Shown one piece after another: positions 4,286 to 36,565 of a DNA stretch of 46,022 nucleotides. Origin of the DNA: a virus; the IMG/VR virus record IMGVR_UViG_3300017706_001457, positions 1 to 46,022 of that record; one strand, 5' to 3'. Position 1 is the first letter of the stretch. Each line of letters starts with the position of its first letter. A program made the translations under genes and the position numbers. The notes beneath the pieces were generated by a model. It had not been told where the DNA came from. It was given only the letters and a program-made list of their open reading frames with translations, and searched no databases.

Positions 4286-5665
4286 TTATTGTTTATTTAG
4301 TTCAAAAAATTTCTTTTTCATTTCACTTCTATCATATTTATCAATCCCACTAAAACTATTAGTTTGTGGGGTTGAAGTATTATCATCTTCATCATTATTA
4401 CCTTCCTGATATAGTTCATTTGAAACTTCAAAATGACCTGTTGATGTATCAGCTTTTACTCCAAATGTTAAACCATCCATACCATATCTATTTTTCATAA
4501 TATGGAATCTTCCAGTTCCTTCTACTTTATCTTTACGTTGTCTAGAAAGAGAAATACAAACATCTGTAATCATTATTTTATCATATGATCCAGCTGCTTT
4601 ATCTCCCTCAACAATATTATCTTTAGCACCAGCTCTATTTACTTGAGAAACACTCCAAACAGGAATATCTAATTCACGAGCTAATCCTTTTGTACTAGTA
4701 TAAATATCATCAATTTCACCTTTTCTATCAACAGTTTTTCTTTTTGAAGAAAGAAGATCTACATAATCAATAATTATTAAATCTGGTTCAATTCCTGTGT
4801 CTTTAACTTTTTGAATGTGTGCCTCTATAGTAGACATTGTTGCTTTTCCTGTTGGAAATTCTTTAATAATTAAATTTCCTTTTAAATCCCCCATTATAGA
4901 TTCAATTCTATCTTTATGTTTTTGAATTTTATCTACACTAATTTTAGAAAAATAAGCATCATATCTTCTTCCTACATATTGTTCACCTAATTCTAAAGTA
5001 TAATGTATAACATTATACCCAAATTTAACAGCATGCCCTCCTAAAGCAACTAATGACCAAGATTTACCACCTCCTGGATTACCAAATATAAGACCAAAAT
5101 CTCCATTTCCGAGGCCTCCTTGAAGTAATTGATTAATTTTATCCCAAGGGGTTTTAATTGTTGTTCTACTATCTTCTCTATATCTTGATTCAACATCTTT
5201 AGTATATTCATGTCCTATATTTTTATCTTGTCCTGCTTTAATAGCATTATTAATTAATGATCTAATAGATTCATAATCCCCTCCTTTTAATAAATCAACA
5301 CTTTGTAATAATGCTCCTTTTAATTGTTGATTTTTACAAAATGAAGAAAACTCTTCCTGAATATATTTTAAATCATCATTAGAAGTTCTATATGCTTCCT
5401 TAAGTTGTTCTTTTATAGATATTTGAAGAACTTCATTACCACATTTTTGTAATTCTACAGCTAATATCTCCATTGAGGGTGTAGTATGATATTTATCATA
5501 ATACCTTAAAATTTCCTTAATTATCCATTTATGAGCTTGATTATCAAAATATTCTTCACTTAACATATCATTTATGTTAACTAAAAATTCTTTATGGGTT
5601 AATAAAGAAGATAATACTTTTATCTGAAATCCAGTACCATAGGAGTTTAAGTTTGTTAATGTCAT
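4286..5665 (-). CDS. 41: Replicative DNA helicase, DnaB family (T4 gp41-like)
   Basis: This 459-aa protein has a helical N-terminal domain (about 1-150) and a RecA-fold helicase core. It shows a Walker A motif GNPGGGKS (about 195-202), a catalytic glutamate in HYTLELGE (about 225), a Walker B motif LIIIDYVDLL (about 295-305), a polar VWSVSQVNRAG segment (sensor/motif H3) and an arginine-containing segment KNRYGMDG near the C-terminal part of the core. This is the DnaB/gp41 family of hexameric 5'-3' helicases that unwind DNA at the fork. The C-terminal 60 residues are acidic and low-complexity and may be a loader or SSB contact. The start follows the RNase H gene by 4 bases, consistent with one replication operon. 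Confidence 0.9.
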   Translation of the reverse strand: MTLTNLNSYGTGFQIKVLSSLLTHKEFLVNINDMLSEEYFDNQAHKWIIKEILRYYDKYHTTPSMEILAVELQKCGNEVLQISIKEQLKEAYRTSNDDLKYIQEEFSSFCKNQQLKGALLQSVDLLKGGDYESIRSLINNAIKAGQDKNIGHEYTKDVESRYREDSRTTIKTPWDKINQLLQGGLGNGDFGLIFGNPGGGKSWSLVALGGHAVKFGYNVIHYTLELGEQYVGRRYDAYFSKISVDKIQKHKDRIESIMGDLKGNLIIKEFPTGKATMSTIEAHIQKVKDTGIEPDLIIIDYVDLLSSKRKTVDRKGEIDDIYTSTKGLARELDIPVWSVSQVNRAGAKDNIVEGDKAAGSYDKIMITDVCISLSRQRKDKVEGTGRFHIMKNRYGMDGLTFGVKADTSTGHFEVSNELYQEGNNDEDDNTSTPQTNSFSGIDKYDRSEMKKKFFELNKQ

Positions 5666-8731: not shown

Positions 8732-9194
8732 TTATCTTATGAATTTTTGTTTTCAATTGCTTTAACTCATCATGTTGAGTTAAAAGTACTGAATTTTTAT
8801 AATGTTCCCAAGTTATAGGGAACTTAGTATCAACTACACCACCATTTAATTTTTTAATTAGTTCATTTAAAGCATTAATAGTATAAAGTGTATTTGTTTC
8901 TTTTTTTCTATGTACTAGAATAGTATTTTCTGGTAGATCTGATATATTACCTTGATCGATATTATAAGTGCATACATACTCATCATTTGACTTAATATAC
9001 AAAACAAATATCTTATTATACATAATATTATATTTACCTGTAATAGTACTTAGAAGATTTTCTAAATTTTCTAAGGTTGTAAAAGTACAAAATAACTTAT
9101 TATTCAAATCTCCTAAATTTTGGTTAGTAATGTCTGAAAAATCATCCATTGTATACATATTAGAAGTTTTATTTAAAATTGTAATTGTTTCCAT
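8721..9194 (-). CDS. Unknown protein overlapping the polymerase gene
   Basis: This 157-aa protein is not recognised. It is rich in Asn, Thr and Leu, with a predicted alpha/beta pattern (CTFTTLENLENLLSTI, KIFVLYIKSNDEYVCTYNI) and a C-terminal helix HDELKQLKTKIHKIIEL. There is no membrane segment or obvious catalytic motif. Its ATG lies 26 bases inside the end of the polymerase gene, so translation is probably coupled and the two proteins may act together. A polymerase accessory factor, such as a processivity or exonuclease partner, is possible by position only. Confidence 0.6.
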   Translation of the reverse strand: METITILNKTSNMYTMDDFSDITNQNLGDLNNKLFCTFTTLENLENLLSTITGKYNIMYNKIFVLYIKSNDEYVCTYNIDQGNISDLPENTILVHRKKETNTLYTINALNELIKKLNGGVVDTKFPITWEHYKNSVLLTQHDELKQLKTKIHKIIEL

Positions 9195-10428
9195 AGCACG
9201 TTTTTATTTGTAATTTATGTTTACTAAATAATTTTTTTATTTCACCCAAAACACCAACTTCTTCTTTACTAACATCAAATAAAAATGAATCATAAGTGTA
9301 TAAAACCAATTTAGTTTTTTTATTTTTTAATAACTTTATTATTTCCCACAATATATGAACATTCATTGCTGTCTCCAAATTTTGTAGTAAATAATTTAAT
9401 AATTTTTGGGGTTTCATTTCATCTAATTTTTCTTTTACAAATCGATGTTTTGAAATAGGACACTCTACCCAGCCTTTTTCCTTAAACTCTTTCCATAGAT
9501 TATCAGTATATACTTGAACTTTTTTAAAAAATTCTAAATGTTTATATTGATCAAATACTCCTCCATATAGTTGTTTAAATGTTAATTCTTTTGCTTTTTT
9601 ATATTCAACTCCATACATTTCCGCAAAGGCAGTATGAATATCTTTATTACCAAAATCATAACCCACCAACTTAGCCAACAAAGTAGGGTGATAAGCACCA
9701 ATATCAAACTCAATAAAGCTATCATTACGGGGAATAAAACTTTCTCTACTATTGTTTTCTTTATTAAGTGCCGCATAATTTACTCCTTTAAATTTATTAC
9801 TTGGTCTTCCTGTAAGGGTTTTAAAGTTGTATTGCGTGTAGATGTATTCTCCATCGATAGGGTGAAAATGCGATTCAAATTTTTCTCTATTAACTCGTAT
9901 GCCACTTCTTTCAATGGAGTTGAATACCATTGATAATTTATTATTGTAGAATTCATTGATTGGTTCATTTATTTTATCTTTAAGGTTATTATATATTTCT
10001 TCACAATACTCATAATGTTTTACTATAGGTATTATTTTATTTATGTCTTTTTTATTTGGGTGTCTTTTATTAAATATGTTATGTGTTTGTAATAATTCTG
10101 GTATATATGGAGGATTTTGTTGGTTAATGTCAAAGAGGCCTTTTATTGGTAAATAATGTAAAAATTCTTTTTTATCTCGTACATATATGTTATTAAATTT
10201 ACATAACATTGTGTTTATATCCGTTATATTTACATTTAAAGTTTCACTATGGTGCAGTGGCACAATAAAACCTTTAGTTGATTCTAACGGTCTAATATAC
10301 AAAGCACAAATATCATTTTGTGAAGGATGAATTAAATAACTATTTGGAATTATTTCTATAAAAACATTTTTCCAATTAGCGTTTGAAAATTGTTCAAATT
10401 GAACTTTACTTTCAACTAACCAAAACAT
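9169..10428 (-). CDS. Compact family A (PolI-like) DNA polymerase with degenerate exonuclease region
   Basis: This 419-aa protein carries the family A polymerase signature in the right order. A thumb/palm entry SIERSGIRVN (171-180) is followed by TLTGRPSN...N (205-217). Motif A is EFDIGAYHPTLLAKLVG with Asp242, the O-helix/motif B is KKAKELTFKQLYGG (277-290), and LLNYLLQNLETAMN follows (343-356). Motif C is YTYDSFLF with Asp380, where family A normally has HDE. The N-terminal 150 residues have traces of the RNase H-fold proofreading domain (IYVRDKKEFLHYLPIKGLFD) but no DxE metal motif, so proofreading is probably lost. It is much smaller than E. coli PolI (928 aa) or T7 polymerase (704 aa). 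T4-like phages normally use the family B enzyme gp43; whether this phage also has one cannot be seen here. Confidence 0.8.
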   Translation of the reverse strand: MFWLVESKVQFEQFSNANWKNVFIEIIPNSYLIHPSQNDICALYIRPLESTKGFIVPLHHSETLNVNITDINTMLCKFNNIYVRDKKEFLHYLPIKGLFDINQQNPPYIPELLQTHNIFNKRHPNKKDINKIIPIVKHYEYCEEIYNNLKDKINEPINEFYNNKLSMVFNSIERSGIRVNREKFESHFHPIDGEYIYTQYNFKTLTGRPSNKFKGVNYAALNKENNSRESFIPRNDSFIEFDIGAYHPTLLAKLVGYDFGNKDIHTAFAEMYGVEYKKAKELTFKQLYGGVFDQYKHLEFFKKVQVYTDNLWKEFKEKGWVECPISKHRFVKEKLDEMKPQKLLNYLLQNLETAMNVHILWEIIKLLKNKKTKLVLYTYDSFLFDVSKEEVGVLGEIKKLFSKHKLQIKTCYGNNYNFK

Positions 10429-19632: not shown

Positions 19633-19926
19633 TTATTTCTTCGATTTTTTAGTTACATAACTTGGAGGAGATATTGTTCTTTTACTTGGAATTTTAGATT
19701 TATCAGGGTTAGCAATATCAATTTCACCTTTAGCTTTAGGATTTTGTGCTTTTTCTTTAGCATCAAAAAACTCTTTCATTTTATTAAAAGTTAATTTACG
19801 TAACCAAAGAGGCATATTATACACAGTATGAAAATCATAACCCCCACCACCATGAAAAACTATTTCGTGTATTTCGTGAAATACCCTTACCCGATACTTA
19901 GAAAACTCATTTAAAGATCGGGCCAG
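19633..19926 (-). CDS. Downstream (-1 frame) segment of the tail assembly chaperone
   Basis: This open frame encodes 97 residues from the slippery site to the stop at 19633. It lies in the -1 frame relative to the 242-aa chaperone ORF. It reads LARSLNEFSKYRVRVFHEIH, EIVFHGGGGYDFHTVYNMPL, WLRKLTFNKMKEFFDAKEKA and a basic tail. The only ATG is in the middle (19824), after the clearly protein-like IHEIVFHGGGGYDFHTVYN part, and no good start precedes it. It is therefore best read as the extension of a -1 frameshift product (about 335 aa), like lambda gpGT, and not as an independent 63-aa gene starting at 19824, although a separate internal product cannot be excluded. Confidence 0.8.
   Translation of the reverse strand: MARSLNEFSKYRVRVFHEIHEIVFHGGGGYDFHTVYNMPLWLRKLTFNKMKEFFDAKEKAQNPKAKGEIDIANPDKSKIPSKRTISPPSYVTKKSKK
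19890..19922 (-). promoter_or_regulatory. Frameshift-stimulating stem-loop
   Basis: On the mRNA, CCCGAT (19922-19917) pairs with ATCGGG (19895-19890), 6 bp plus a possible closing G-U, around a 21-base loop that holds the zero-frame stop codon. It begins 6 bases after heptamer A AAT TTT (or 3 after T TTT TTC), the usual place for a -1 frameshift stimulator. Confidence 0.65.
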
Positions 19927-20639
19927 AAAAAATTTACTGTAATAGGAATTGAAATTTCTAATCCCTCATCTGTTGTATAACTTAAATCAATATCAGGACC
20001 AATATCTTTAATATGATTTCTTAATGCTCTAGAATCACGAGCTAATAAAAAATTATCAACATATTTACGAATTCCACTTTTACTATTATCTCCATCTACT
20101 GACACTATTTGATGTTTTAATTTTGTAGTTACCTCAGGTGCTGCTGCTTTTGATAACTTTGAAAATGATAATACTTCTTGAGTAATAGTATCAATGTCTT
20201 TTTCAGTTAAATGTTTATATTCTACTATAGTTCCATTTGAAGGCATTTCAAAAGTACCATAACCATCATCTGATAGAGCTTCAGTGTCAAAAGGTTTATT
20301 TTCAATTGTTGATAAATCAATTGTGTATTCTTTTCCTGCATACTCAAATTTATATTCCGAACCATACCCTAATATTCTGGCTGCTACAAAAATAGCATTT
20401 TTATCTCCTGTATGTATATCTTTTATATCAAATTTATTCATAGTAAGAGCTTCTAATAATTTATCTAATACTAATCCTTTTTCTATATAATTTTGATTAG
20501 TTAAAATATCTTCTTCTTTAGCAGTCATATATTTCATTTCTACTTTTCCAGAGGATAATATGTGATCTTTAGGATAAATTTTACCTTTTGAAGGTAATTC
20601 AACTAATTCTGTTGGGAATTTAAATTTTTCTTCACTCAT
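19911..20639 (-). CDS. 26: Tail assembly chaperone / gp26-like protein, zero-frame product
   Basis: This 242-aa protein contains VEMKYMTAKEEDILTNQNYI followed by EKGLVLDKLLEALTMNKFD and IFVAARILGYGSEYKF, which I recognise as the conserved core of proteins labelled gp26 (baseplate hub) in T4-like marine phages. It lies between tail tube and tape measure, where tailed phages encode tail assembly chaperones. The last codons before the stop (AAT TTT TTC TGG CCC GAT CTT) contain a slippery sequence and the -1 frame continues for 97 codons, giving a second, longer product. The short form probably binds tail tube or tape measure during assembly. The upstream late motif (20668-20677) lies 28 bases before the ATG. 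Confidence 0.75.
   Translation of the reverse strand: MSEEKFKFPTELVELPSKGKIYPKDHILSSGKVEMKYMTAKEEDILTNQNYIEKGLVLDKLLEALTMNKFDIKDIHTGDKNAIFVAARILGYGSEYKFEYAGKEYTIDLSTIENKPFDTEALSDDGYGTFEMPSNGTIVEYKHLTEKDIDTITQEVLSFSKLSKAAAPEVTTKLKHQIVSVDGDNSKSGIRKYVDNFLLARDSRALRNHIKDIGPDIDLSYTTDEGLEISIPITVNFFWPDL
19926..19935 (-). other. -1 ribosomal frameshift slippery site AAATTTTTTC
   Basis: In the zero frame this reads A AAT TTT TTC, offering two overlapping X XXY YYZ heptamers, A AAT TTT and T TTT TTC. It is four codons before the zero-frame stop, and the -1 frame beyond it encodes the conserved-looking HEIHEIVFHGGGGYDFHTVY segment. Confidence 0.8.
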
Positions 20640-28447: not shown

Positions 28448-31400
28448 TTATTTTTTCTTTAATTCATCAACTTCGGCTTTTAGTTCTTTAACAGCTTCAA
28501 TTAATACAGCTACTAATTTATCGTATTTAACCGCCTTATAACCATTAGCTCTAGTTGTAACTAATTCTGGAAATACTGATTCTATTTCTTGTGCTATAAC
28601 ACCTATATCTGATCCTTCATTAGCATGTATAGCTTTTGTTTTATTAGCTTCAAATTCTAACCAATCAAATTTAATACCATTCATCATTATTACTTTATCT
28701 AAGGCATTTGGTATATTTATAATATTTGTTTTTAATCTTCTATCTGATGTCGCAAATGCTATAACATCATTTTCAGCTTGAATCAAACCATCAGTTGTTG
28801 ATGAAGTTCCTAATGCTAATCCTACATTTAATTGTTCAACATTTAATAATCCAGAAGTATCTTGAAATTTCATATCATTTGATCCTCCTGCTGTACCTCC
28901 ATCATTGTATAAAACTTGAGTATTTGAACCCCCTACTGGACCTGTTGTACCTGTTATACCTTGGATACCTTGTGAACCTGTACTACCTGTACCTGTTGTA
29001 CCTTGAACACCTTGTGTACCTGTAGTTCCTTGTGAACCTGTAGAACCTCCTCCACCTGTAGCACCTTGAGTACCTGTTGTACCTTGTGAACCTGTTCCTC
29101 CTGCTCCTCCTGTTGTACCTTGGATACCTTGTGAACCTGTTCCTCCTGCTCCTCCTGTTGTACCTTGGATACCTTGTGAACCTGTACTACCTGTACCTGT
29201 TGTACCTTGAACACCTTGTGAACCTACTCCTCCATCATCACCTACAGTACCTTGAGTACCTTGAGTACCTGTAGTTCCTTGTGTTCCTTGTGTTCCTGTA
29301 CCACCTGTTGATCCATTATTACCAGCTACACCCTGTTTACCTTGTTTACCTTGAACACCTTGTTTACCTTGTTTACCTTGAACACCTTGTCTACCTTGAA
29401 CACCTTGTACACCTACAGGAATAAACATTATAACTACTGCTTTTCCATCAGCTGGTAAGGCACCATCAGCTCCATCTACTGTATAAGCAACTTGGTTACT
29501 TGCAGTTGATCCTATTTCCTGAATATTAAATCTACAATATATAGTCATATCAGTTGCACCCGTAATTATTAAAGACCCATGATTGTTAGTTTGACCATAA
29601 TCATCAAAAGTTTCTAAATAATCACCTACATTATTACCATTAGCATCTACGTCATTTATGTATACTACTGAAACACTACCTAATGATGCTTCATTAAAGG
29701 CAATTCCACCTGATATTGCACTACTTTGAGCTCCACCTTTAAATGAAAATTCAATTCCTCCTTTATCACCTGTTGTACCTGTTACACCTTGAATACCTTG
29801 AGTACCTGTAGTTCCTTGTGCACCTGTTCCTCCATTATTTCCATTTGTACCTTGAATACCTTGAGTACCTGTAGTTCCTTGTGCACCTGTTCCTCCTGTT
29901 CCCCCAGGATCACCTGTTATTCCTTGAATACCTTGTGTACCTGTAGTTCCTTGTACACCTGTACCTGTTACACCTTGAATACCTTGTGAACCTGTAGATC
30001 CATTTGAACCTGCTGCACCTTGTTTACCTTGAATACCTTGAGTACCTGTAGTTCCTTGTGCACCTGTACCTCCATCTCCACCTGTTATACCTTGAATACC
30101 TTGTGAACCTGTTCCTCCTGTTCCACCTGTTGTACCTGTTGTACCTTGAGTACCAGTTATACCTTGTGTACCTTGAGTACCTGTAGCTCCTTGTTTACCT
30201 TGAATACCTTGTGTACCTGTAGTTCCTTGTTTACCCTGTGCACCTTGAATACCTTGAATACCTTGAGTACCTGTTATACCTTGAATACCTTGAGAACCCG
30301 TTCCTCCAGTAGTACCTGTTGTTCCTTGTTTACCTTGAACACCTTGTGAACCTGTATTTCCAGTAGTACCTGTAGCACCTTGTGTACCTTGTGAACCTGT
30401 TCCTCCTGTTCCACCTGTTGTTCCTTGTTTACCTTGAATACCTTGTGTTCCTTGTTTACCTTGAACACCTTGAGTTCCTGTAGTTCCTTGTCTACCTTGT
30501 ATACCTTGTGTACCTGTTGTTCCTTGTTTACCTTGGGTACCTTGAGTACCTGTATCTCCTTTATCACCTGTAGTTACAAATGATACTATTACTTCTTCAC
30601 CATTACTAAATGGAGCTACTGCTGATGACGCTTGTGAAGCAATATTAATTATCCACCATCCTGTTTGATCTTCAAGATCTGATATTGAAAATAGTATAAA
30701 TTGAGCTGCATCATCTTTGTTAGATATTCTAACATGACCTTTTACAGCAGATGTAACAGCATCTATTGAGGTCATAAATGATGAAATGTCATTTCCATTT
30801 TCATCTAAATCATCAATATACATATTACCTGCTGAAGCTTGAGTTGCTGATGATAATCTAACATCTCCTGCTCCTGGATCTGATGAAGCAGTTGATGTAT
30901 CAAAAGTATAAAAGAAAGTAGCACCACCAAAATTTCCATCTGTTCCTTGTGTACCTAATGTACCTTGTGTTCCTTGAGTTCCTTGTGAACCTGTAGTACC
31001 TTGAGTACCTGTTGTACCTTGAGTACCTGTAGTTCCTTGTTTACCTTGTGTACCTTGTGAACCTGTTCCTCCTGTTGTTCCTTGTTTACCTTGAACACCT
31101 TGTGAACCTGTATTTCCAGTAGTACCTGTAGTACCTTGTGTACCTTGTGAACCTGTTCCACCAGTATTACCTGTTGTACCTTGTATTCCTTGAATACCTT
31201 GTGCACCTGTTGTTCCTTGAATACCTTGTGTACCTGTAGTTCCTTGTGAACCTGTTGTACCTGTTCCTCCTTGTTTACCTTGTACACCTTGTGTACCTGT
31301 AGTTCCTTGAACACCTTGTGTACCTGTATTACCTGTTGTACCTGTTGTACCTTGAGTACCTGTAGTTCCTTGTTTACCTTGTGTACCTTGTGAACCTGTT

Positions 31401-32830
31401 CCTCCTGTTCCACCTGTTGTTCCTTGTTTACCTTGAACACCTTGTACACCTTGTGAACCTGTTCCTCCTGTGTCTCCTGTTATACCTTGTACACCTTGTG
31501 AACCTGTTCCTCCTGTAATTCCTTGAATACCTTGAGTACCTGTAGCACCTTGTGTTCCTTGTGAACCTGTTGTACCTGTTCCTCCTTGTTTACCTTGTAC
31601 ACCTTGTGTACCTGTTGTTCCTTGTTTACCTTGAGTACCTTGAGTACCTGTTGTACCTTGAATACCTTGTATACCTTGTGAACCTGTTGTACCTGTTCCT
31701 CCTTGTTTACCTTGTACACCTTGTGTACCTGTAGTTCCTTGTTTACCTTGAACACCTTGTACACCTTGAACACCAGTTGGTATAAATTCTAAAACACATA
31801 TTTCTCCTGCAGATGGTAAAACCCCAGTTATGTAAGATAAATCAACAGTAAACCAACCTGTATTGTTAGTTACACTTCCTTCAACAGTAAATATTGCATA
31901 AGTATCATCATCATTAGTGTTAGACTTAATAACTAATGTACCTCTATTACTAGATATACCTAAATCATCCCAAGTTAAAATATAATTTCCAACATTAGCC
32001 CCATCATCTGTAGTTTGATTTATGTAAAGTTCGGTAACTGATCCTATTGTACCATTATTTAACCTAAAGTCTCCTGAACCTGGATTTGCTGCTGAAGTAT
32101 TTGCTTCAAACCCATACAATAGTCCACCTTTATCTCCTTGTGTACCTTGAATACCTTGAGTACCTTGAATACCTTGAATACCTTGTGAACCTGTTCCTCC
32201 TGTAGTCCCTTGTTTACCTTGTACACCTTGAGTTCCTGTTGTTCCTTGTTTACCTTGAGTACCTTGAGTACCTGTTGTACCTTGAATACCCTGTATACCT
32301 TGTGAACCTGTTGTACCTGTTCCTCCTTGTTTACCTTGTACACCTTGTGTACCTGTTGTTCCTTGTACACCTTGTGTACCTGTAGTTCCTTGTGTTCCTT
32401 GTGAACCTGTTGTACCTGTTCCTCCTTGTTTACCTTGAGTACCTTGAGTTCCTGTTGTTCCTTGTTTACCTTGAGTACCTTGAGTACCTGTTCCTCCAGT
32501 ATCACCTGTTATACCTTGAATACCTTGAGAACCTGTTGTACCTGTTGCCCCTTGTTTACCTTGAACACCCTGAATACCTTGTGTTCCTGTAGTTCCTTGA
32601 ATACCTTGTGCACCTGTAGCTCCTTGTTTACCTTGTACACCTTGTGTACCTGTAGCTCCTTGTATACCTTGGACTCCTTGTAATGATAAATCAGTTCTGT
32701 ATTTTAAAGCCCCACCATTATTAACAACAACAATTTTGCTTTCACTAGATCCCTCGGGAATACCAGATCCTGTTATTTGATTTAGAATAGCGTTTGATCC
32801 GCTAACTATTACTTTTTTCCAATTTGGCAT
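28448..32830 (-). CDS. Giant collagen-like tail fibre with C-terminal S74 (endosialidase-type) chaperone
   Basis: This 1460-aa protein starts MPNWKKVIVSGS, shared with the 630-aa fibre. Long Gly-X-Y collagen-like runs (GTQGIQGTTG-type, about 51-235, 351-630, 756-1020 and 1139-1296) alternate with three related globular domains (about 236-350, 630-755, 1021-1138; each begins GG, then a YxF-type strand, and includes an LYIN/MYID-like segment). The last 99 residues form a peptidase S74 intramolecular chaperone: SDRRLKTNI (Ser1362, Lys1367), FDWLEF, GVIAQEIESVFPELV, YDKLVAVLIEAVKEL. That domain trimerises the fibre and cuts itself off before Ser1362 in known members. The product is probably a long trimeric collagen-like fibre for host recognition. 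Confidence 0.85.
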   Translation of the reverse strand: MPNWKKVIVSGSNAILNQITGSGIPEGSSESKIVVVNNGGALKYRTDLSLQGVQGIQGATGTQGVQGKQGATGAQGIQGTTGTQGIQGVQGKQGATGTTGSQGIQGITGDTGGTGTQGTQGKQGTTGTQGTQGKQGGTGTTGSQGTQGTTGTQGVQGTTGTQGVQGKQGGTGTTGSQGIQGIQGTTGTQGTQGKQGTTGTQGVQGKQGTTGGTGSQGIQGIQGTQGIQGTQGDKGGLLYGFEANTSAANPGSGDFRLNNGTIGSVTELYINQTTDDGANVGNYILTWDDLGISSNRGTLVIKSNTNDDDTYAIFTVEGSVTNNTGWFTVDLSYITGVLPSAGEICVLEFIPTGVQGVQGVQGKQGTTGTQGVQGKQGGTGTTGSQGIQGIQGTTGTQGTQGKQGTTGTQGVQGKQGGTGTTGSQGTQGATGTQGIQGITGGTGSQGVQGITGDTGGTGSQGVQGVQGKQGTTGGTGGTGSQGTQGKQGTTGTQGTTGTTGNTGTQGVQGTTGTQGVQGKQGGTGTTGSQGTTGTQGIQGTTGAQGIQGIQGTTGNTGGTGSQGTQGTTGTTGNTGSQGVQGKQGTTGGTGSQGTQGKQGTTGTQGTTGTQGTTGSQGTQGTQGTLGTQGTDGNFGGATFFYTFDTSTASSDPGAGDVRLSSATQASAGNMYIDDLDENGNDISSFMTSIDAVTSAVKGHVRISNKDDAAQFILFSISDLEDQTGWWIINIASQASSAVAPFSNGEEVIVSFVTTGDKGDTGTQGTQGKQGTTGTQGIQGRQGTTGTQGVQGKQGTQGIQGKQGTTGGTGGTGSQGTQGATGTTGNTGSQGVQGKQGTTGTTGGTGSQGIQGITGTQGIQGIQGAQGKQGTTGTQGIQGKQGATGTQGTQGITGTQGTTGTTGGTGGTGSQGIQGITGGDGGTGAQGTTGTQGIQGKQGAAGSNGSTGSQGIQGVTGTGVQGTTGTQGIQGITGDPGGTGGTGAQGTTGTQGIQGTNGNNGGTGAQGTTGTQGIQGVTGTTGDKGGIEFSFKGGAQSSAISGGIAFNEASLGSVSVVYINDVDANGNNVGDYLETFDDYGQTNNHGSLIITGATDMTIYCRFNIQEIGSTASNQVAYTVDGADGALPADGKAVVIMFIPVGVQGVQGRQGVQGKQGKQGVQGKQGKQGVAGNNGSTGGTGTQGTQGTTGTQGTQGTVGDDGGVGSQGVQGTTGTGSTGSQGIQGTTGGAGGTGSQGIQGTTGGAGGTGSQGTTGTQGATGGGGSTGSQGTTGTQGVQGTTGTGSTGSQGIQGITGTTGPVGGSNTQVLYNDGGTAGGSNDMKFQDTSGLLNVEQLNVGLALGTSSTTDGLIQAENDVIAFATSDRRLKTNIINIPNALDKVIMMNGIKFDWLEFEANKTKAIHANEGSDIGVIAQEIESVFPELVTTRANGYKAVKYDKLVAVLIEAVKELKAEVDELKKK
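28940..32690 (-). repeat. Collagen-repeat DNA, four blocks
   Basis: About 2.6 kb of this span encodes Gly-X-Y triplets from near-identical 9- to 36-base units (on the plus strand, permutations of accttgtgtacctgtagtt). The three globular domains interrupt it near 31784-32125, 30568-30950 and 29416-29770. Such sequence is prone to slippage and recombination, so repeat number may vary between isolates. Confidence 0.85.
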
Positions 32831-35257: not shown

Positions 35258-36565
35258 TTATTCTAACCCCATATAAAAGTTAGATGAAGAATAAACTAAT
35301 CCTCCTGTTACTGCTGTTGGTAAAGTATCTAATGATCCAAATCTTAATACTCCATCACCATTTATACGTAATTTTTCATTTTGACCATTACCATCGTTTA
35401 TTTCTATTAAAAATGGAGTTTCATTAGCTGAAGAAGTAATTAAAAGTGTTCCTGATGAAGTAATATTACCCCCAAAATCAAAACTAACACCATTAGCTAC
35501 TGTAACTGTTGAAGATGAAAATATAACAGAATCTCCTCCTATTATTAAAGGACTATTACCATTTAAATATGAAAATGAACCTGTAGAACCTGATATATGT
35601 CCACTTGCACTTATATTTGTAGTTTTTAAAGTTGAAGTAGATGGGTTAAATGAAAGATCAAGAAGTGTTGGATCCTGACCCATTGATGCTGCTGTTCCAC
35701 TACCACCTCCTTGAGAAATAACAAATGGTAATCTATAATTAGCATCATTATCATCATCTGTAACTACAATTGTAGCACCTCCTACACCAGGAACACCAGT
35801 TGCACCTTGTATACCTTGAGCACCTGTAGTACCTTGAACACCAGTATCACCTTTATCACCTGTTACTTGAAATGAACATATTATATCATCTCCATTTCCA
35901 AATGGGTTTGATGCTGAAGATGCTTCAGCTGTAATGGTTAATATATACCAAGTGTTTGCATCTTGTCCTGCTACTGTTGTTATTTGATACAACACAAAAT
36001 CATCAGTATTTCCTTTTTCTGATACTCTAACATGACCCTTTATTGTTGATGTAGCATTAGATATAGTAGTCATAAATGATACTATACTATTACCTGCATC
36101 ATCTGTTGCATCTATATATAAAGCAGTTGCTGTGTTTTGAGTTGCATTATTTAATTGAACAATACCAGTTCCAGGATCTGCTGGTGGTGCAGGTACTGTT
36201 ATACTAAAAGTATAATCAAATGAAGCACCTCCAAAATTACCAACTGTACCTTGTGTACCTGTAGCTCCTTGAGTACCTGTAGCTCCTTGAGTACCTGTAC
36301 CTGTTATACCTTGAATACCTTGTGTACCAAGAATTCCTTGAATTCCTTGTACACCTGTTATTCCTTGGATTCCTTGTGTTCCTACACCAGTAATACCTTG
36401 TATACCTTGTAAACCTTGTATTCCTTGTAAACCTTGAGTACCCGTTATACCTTGAATACCTTGAGCACCTGTTCTTCCTGGGGAATTTACTTGTACTACA
36501 GAAGTTTTTTCAGAGGTTATTACAACTTGATTAGTGGTAGGATTTATTTTTATTTGATCAGACAT
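35258..36565 (-). CDS. Collagen-like fibre or adhesion protein with one globular insert
   Basis: This 435-aa protein has a short head (MSDQIKINPTTNQVVITSEK), a collagen-like Gly-X-Y run (about 30-105), one globular domain (about 106-235: GGASFDYTF, then QLNNATQNTATALYIDATDD, then DDIICSFQVTGDKGDTG) that is clearly related to the three globular domains of the giant fibre, a second short collagen run, and a beta-rich C-terminus (about 270-435) ending SNFYMGLE. It may be a side fibre or whisker-like protein built from the same modules. It starts 8 bases after the 138-aa gene. Confidence 0.75.
   Translation of the reverse strand: MSDQIKINPTTNQVVITSEKTSVVQVNSPGRTGAQGIQGITGTQGLQGIQGLQGIQGITGVGTQGIQGITGVQGIQGILGTQGIQGITGTGTQGATGTQGATGTQGTVGNFGGASFDYTFSITVPAPPADPGTGIVQLNNATQNTATALYIDATDDAGNSIVSFMTTISNATSTIKGHVRVSEKGNTDDFVLYQITTVAGQDANTWYILTITAEASSASNPFGNGDDIICSFQVTGDKGDTGVQGTTGAQGIQGATGVPGVGGATIVVTDDDNDANYRLPFVISQGGGSGTAASMGQDPTLLDLSFNPSTSTLKTTNISASGHISGSTGSFSYLNGNSPLIIGGDSVIFSSSTVTVANGVSFDFGGNITSSGTLLITSSANETPFLIEINDGNGQNEKLRINGDGVLRFGSLDTLPTAVTGGLVYSSSNFYMGLE

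Follow-up and report, generated by a model that had tools for sequence, protein, structure and literature searches.

The window analysed here, a virus record of 46,022 bases taken at its full length, carries on its minus strand the structural genes of a marine, T4-like, contractile-tailed phage; it raises the question of whether the two overlapping ORFs that lie between its tail tube and tape measure genes, named G and T below, are separate genes or two parts of one. It is very probable, judging from the sequence features described below, that they form a single gene that makes a short and a long tail-assembly chaperone by -1 frameshifting. Frameshifted tail chaperones of the lambda G/GT kind are already known; lambda gpG/gpGT and the tail assembly chaperones of dsDNA phages were reportedly treated by Levin in 1993 and by Xu, Hendrix and Duda in 2004. 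Like the lambda pair (gene order V-G-T-H), the window pair is located between tail tube and tape measure, combines a short form with a (here predicted) frameshifted long form, and has an in-frame slippery heptamer of the X_XXY_YYZ type, located within the ORF overlap shortly before the first ORF closes, and a 3' ORF without a start. In contrast to lambda gpG/gpGT, with which no sequence similarity was found, the window protein appears to fall into the T4 gp26 family, and its close relatives shift in the opposite direction at the same codons. The tail assembly chaperones of dsDNA phages have been reviewed (PMC5009743), and different phages use -1, -2 or +1 shifts (PMC5009743).

Gene order and the G/T junction in the window

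The structural genes run from sheath and tube through G and T to the tape measure (Table 1); the tape measure is named by position, and its positional counterpart in Flavobacterium phage immuto is annotated "tail tape measure protein". A cultured Flavobacterium relative suggests that the host probably belongs to the Bacteroidota, whose translation, to our knowledge, has been little studied for frameshifting. Elsewhere in the window, a 1460-aa protein (28448-32830) consists mostly of collagen-like GxQGxxG repeats and has an intramolecular-chaperone-like C-terminal end, and shorter collagen-like repeats of the same kind occur at 35258-36565; a 419-aa ORF (9169-10428) has apparent polymerase motifs (FDIGAYHPTLLAKL, KQLYGGVFD) and is far shorter than usual phage polymerases.

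Table 1. Features surrounding the G/T junction of the window, and the T4 genes to which they are compared.
Feature	Coordinates	Strand	Remarks
Sheath	23051-21273	minus	
Tail tube protein, gp19-like, upstream neighbour	21227-20739	minus	PHROG_4542, E=2e-22; PF06841 below its cut-off
Zero-frame ORF, 242 aa, short product, "G" domain	20639-19911	minus	PHROG_150 (baseplate hub), E=4e-8
Overlapping weaker heptamer A_AAU_UUU	19935-19929	minus	missing from GGT TTT TTT clade members
Slippery heptamer U_UUU_UUC	19932-19926	minus	main -1 site; common to other -1 phages
-1 frame extension, "T" domain, 97 codons (19926-19636) and stop	19926-19633	minus	
Stem, 5' arm CCCGAT	19922-19917	minus	after a mismatch, lengthened by UUU/AAG
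Zero-frame stop UAA, within the loop	19913-19911	minus	
Stem, 3' arm ATCGGG	19895-19890	minus	
801-aa ORF in tape-measure position, downstream neighbour	19599-17194	minus	immuto counterpart annotated so
T4 gp26 and gp51 genes	L124:3803-4429 and 4480-5229	opposite strands	

The match of window G to PHROG_150 is listed in Table 1; window G was not among the matches to PF12322, which are found for 10 of the 48 alignment members (best 3e-7), and no match was obtained in the NCBIfam search, for window T alone against PHROG_634 or the T4 gp51 C-terminal domain, or for the G sequence profile against solved structures. The two halves were folded separately. Among solved structures, the one most similar to the AlphaFold model of G (pLDDT 90.5) is 2ob9, the HK97 tail assembly chaperone (Z 4.9, rmsd 5.6, 83 aligned residues, in a range, Z<8, that can reflect a common arrangement), followed by a PICI protein (Z 3.8) and then by unrelated structures at Z 2.8 or less; the resemblance of the modelled fold to the HK97 chaperone is suggestive only. 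Fold matches of the G model in BFVD include T4-like baseplate hub proteins, with E-values down to 1e-15. The T model is a small helical domain (pLDDT 74), and the fold search with it returned nothing significant. On sequence grounds, the window gene is probably a member of the T4 gp26/gp51 family.

The junction reads GTA AAT TTT TTC TGG CCC GAT CTT TAA. An earlier, sequence-only reading had described it as a 242-aa ORF ending just past two overlapping heptamers, followed by a CCCGAT/ATCGGG stem whose loop holds the zero-frame stop and by 97 codons of -1 frame without a usable start; the coordinates of the ORF and heptamers agreed base for base, those of the stem agreed as well, and in the -1 frame, which is open from 19965 to 19636, the earliest candidate starts (GTG at 19824 and ATG at 19815) both fall within the conserved domain. 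Of the two heptamers, U_UUU_UUC is a far better slippery site than A_AAU_UUU, and it recurs in other -1 phages. A slip at TTTTTTC would join 238 residues to 97, and recomputation again gave the predicted fusion of 335 aa. The probability of a 97-codon open frame arising by chance is about 1.4e-4 at the composition of the window (31% G+C). When the window is compared with its closest relatives, the substitutions at positions 1/2/3 of the -1 frame number, for example, 2/3/13, 10/4/20 and 6/1/17; this bias towards the third position indicates that the frame is translated and under protein selection. The stem of the window has a structure z-score of -2.3.

Shift direction and its signals among the relatives

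Scans of viral contigs and phage records provided 211 distinct loci with a zero-frame stop, and the 3' domain was located by profile in 207 of them; it was found in the +1 frame in 195 loci (for example L031:1808-2804), in the -1 frame in 12 (the window together with L001-L004, L008, L009, L011, L012, L017, L023 and L052), and in frame in none. The layout of the T4 type, a separate in-frame long gene beside a short gene, was not encountered, T being out of frame in the window and its relatives. The domain is preceded by no ATG, GTG or TTG in 9/12 loci of the -1 class and 88/190 of the +1 class (97/202 overall). In both classes the protein ends in NFFWPD(L) or a sequence near it; the sites of the -1 class read AAT TTT TTC TGG CC[CG] GAT or GGT TTT TTT TGG CCG GAT. 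A 3' domain that lies out of frame could also indicate a pseudogene, an assembly indel or a recent frameshift mutation, to which we assign next to no probability; this reading is refuted by conservation, since 12 distinct -1 loci, each assembled independently, and 195 +1 loci share the layout, and the shifted frame shows coding evolution. Two distant members have junctions of other appearance: that of Streptococcus phage record vB_SagM-GXN1 (L083:4001-4727) looks like a +1 site at CGT_CCC_CGA, and that of Stenotrophomonas phage RAS14 (L085) like a -1 site at AGT_TTT_TTT_ATC.

The expectation that heptamer and stem would be conserved among relatives held within the window clade and failed in the wider family, where another, equally conserved signal is found instead; the underlying proposal of a -1 frameshift in a gene of the tail-chaperone type was borne out by gene order, the startless 3' ORF, coding evolution in the -1 frame, and the heptamer and stem conserved in the clade. 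The signal of the +1 class is V_UUU_YUN_UGG_CCU, usually in the form V TTT TTT TGG CCT, with TTT CTT in 29/191 and TTT CTA in 5/191 loci; annotation overlooks this signal, the immuto and Mel-JY01 records listing two genes. Its CCT is invariant because of dual coding, as the +1 frame requires GGC CTN (Gly-Leu). Coding cannot, judging from codon usage, account for the base ahead of TTT: it is T in one of 188 +1 loci, against 103 expected (sd 6.6), and in 12/12 loci of the window clade and 71/71 cyanophage-like loci. A T in this position would create the -1 heptamer T_TTT_TTT; the +1 class therefore avoids the very feature that marks the -1 class. At the second codon, TTC is used in 9/12 window-clade loci and in 71/71 cyanophage-like loci with the heptamer, yet TTT makes up 82-87% of Phe codons; TTC as second codon would hinder a +1 slip.

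RNA structure follows the same division. The +1 class has no structure in the 48 bases downstream of the site (mean z +0.34, n=56; random positions, -0.11), whereas the cyanophages average -3.63 (n=59). Within the window clade a stem is present in 10 of 11 members (z -1.4 to -3.1), the member without a stable stem being L017; it occurs in three layouts, as if it had arisen or been rebuilt more than once. Both arms are invariant within the window's own subclade, and covariation is consequently uninformative there.

These signals also bear on the process by which the frame is changed. Transcriptional slippage at the U run would yield mixed mRNAs and dispense with a ribosomal shift, and the T6 to T8 runs that most loci carry at the site would suit it; yet the run in the window is merely T6, 34/191 +1 loci have the site TTTCTTTGG or TTTCTATGG (or TTTCTATTC) with no run longer than three, and the confinement of the stem to the -1 class, together with constraints specific to codon phase, fits ribosomal slippage, so that we regard a transcriptional origin as highly improbable. 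For the +1 relatives, though not for the window, a shift by -2 would reach the same reading frame. UUU_UUU_UGG would permit a -2 slip in the P site with full re-pairing, and phage Mu uses -2 (PMC5009743); base-pairing considerations indicate, however, that UUU_CUA_UGG sites re-pair well only for the +1 slip from UUU to UUC, and a -2 shift in these relatives appears unlikely.

The -1 class is placed deep inside the +1 family. In the FastTree phylogeny, the window clade is nested in a 53-member clade (support 1.0) that is otherwise +1, and the +1 locus L035 is placed among the -1 loci. The cyanophage proteins are very distant and gave an unstable root, which was rejected in favour of a root within the family; IQ-TREE with this root agrees (13-member clade 98, 14-member clade 90, 54-member clade 100; 53-member node 62). 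The position of the window clade inside the +1 family indicates that the direction of the shift probably switched; a change from +1 to -1 in the ancestry of the window, accompanied either by a reversal in L035 or by a further switch, would be the simplest reading of these trees, and not a proven one. To judge from the papers searched, the use of opposite shift directions at the same codons, each with signals to match, appears to be new.

Cyanophages and the T4 proteins gp26 and gp51

Separately from the window clade, a -1 layout like that of the window is found in cyanophages. P-SSM2 encodes gp26 and the PHROG_634 domain ("gp51") in neighbouring genes (PSSM2_014/015), and the "gp51" frame is open in -1 through AGT TTT TTC GTA TAA; PSSM2_106/107, an overlapping pair, were rejected as the cyanophage pair, since one resembles a glycosyltransferase and the other is a small protein. 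The layout of PSSM2_014/015 recurs in S-RIM2, S-N03, Desulfovibrio phage 7757 and Vibrio phage phi-Grn1 (Straboviridae). In a set of 75 cyanophage-like and related loci, G closes with NNT TTT TTC followed by no more than one codon, three loci excepted. As in the window, the cyanophage pair (P-SSM2, S-RIM2) has U_UUU_UUC near the G stop (one codon before it in cyanophages), T in the -1 frame, and a stem-loop after a 5-base spacer; the cyanophage stem, a helix of 11 bp, is 93% paired across 31 sequences and shows slight covariation (one compensated pair). The proteins themselves are very distant; the T profile of the window family nevertheless matches cyanophage T (prob 83, E 9e-6, score 31.6, compared to a maximum of 15.5 in 150 column shuffles).

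Unlike the window, the cyanophages have T annotated as a gene of its own, and many of their T frames have an ATG 5 bases past the G stop, from which reinitiation may contribute in such cyanophages. These observations, and the separate gene calls for G and T in immuto and Mel-JY01, would agree with two genes in which T is translated alone by coupling or reinitiation past the G stop, and so would the junction of two Vibrio Ackermannviridae (L421 and L425), in which a gp26-like gene and a T ORF are joined by TAATG with no good heptamer, possibly a reinitiation route and a further way to the T domain. On the other hand, no start precedes the domain in the window or in the startless family loci counted above, the -1 frame of S-RIM2 has no ATG, GTG or TTG before the inside of the domain, and separate genes leave the conserved out-of-frame heptamer, its preceding base and the stem unexplained; for the window we consider two separate genes very unlikely, and retain the frameshift as the preferred reading.

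The T4 proteins extend the comparison. PF12322 and PHROG_150 each include both T4 gp26 and T4 gp51; gp26 consists of this domain only, and gp51, longer by about 48 residues, matches PHROG_634 in addition. By profile comparison, the C-terminus of gp51 is matched by cyanophage T (prob 97.7, E 1.6e-12) and, marginally, by the T profile of the window family (score 17.8 vs. a shuffled maximum of 17.4). Since the two proteins are of one family and gp51 carries an extra C-terminal domain, T4 may encode the short and long forms as paralogues. Window G shares PHROG_150 with both T4 proteins; in contrast to the window, the short and long proteins of T4 come from two genes on opposite strands, with no frameshift. 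A review of T4 counts both among the hub assembly chaperones and describes gp51 as needed for assembly and absent from the final particle (PMC3004832), as would be expected by analogy with tail assembly chaperones. A 2016 review described the G-T frameshift as widely conserved in long-tailed phages "except T4" (PMC5009743). No link between gp26/gp51 and frameshifting was found in the open-access papers searched, most of them represented by title or abstract, and the interpretation of gp26/gp51 as a short and long chaperone from two genes looks new among these papers.

Proposed mechanism and implications

In the mechanism proposed for the window, most ribosomes would terminate at 19913 and release the 242-aa chaperone G; the downstream stem would stall the ribosome, and a minority would slip back by a single base on U_UUU_UUC and continue for another 97 residues, so that a GT fusion of 335 aa results. 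If the two products act as in lambda, the tape measure protein would be coated by G, and tail-tube subunits would be recruited by the T domain of GT; that the fusion is produced, in what ratio and in which role, we infer from the features described above. The +1 relatives would resemble known +1 sites, such as influenza PA-X UCC_UUU_CGU (PMC3498833), RF2 CUU_UGA and Listeria PSA CCC_UGA (PMC5009743), in a P-site slip from a UUU- or CUU-type codon to an overlapping codon that still pairs; they differ from these sites in that the A site holds a sense codon such as UGG and no stop, and in that the shift serves a tail chaperone.

For the family as a whole, we favour, with some reservation, the reading that gp26/gp51 is the tail chaperone of T4-like phages and that its short and long forms are made in three interchangeable ways, with the direction of the shift flipped at the same codons. 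They would arise by a -1 frameshift with a stem in the window clade, the cyanophages and a Schizotequatrovirus, by a +1 frameshift without a stem in most marine relatives, and from two paralogous genes in T4, with gp26 as the short and gp51 as the long form. The family represents a natural experiment: one and the same protein junction is reached via -1 or +1, and the expected signals (the base before the run, the second codon, and the stem) are swapped. Its recognition should aid the annotation of many phage genomes that lack a T call or list T as a tiny gene of its own. If true, the three-way model accounts for T4 as the recorded exception to tail-chaperone frameshifting, and two long-puzzling T4 hub assembly proteins, gp26 and gp51, gain a function.
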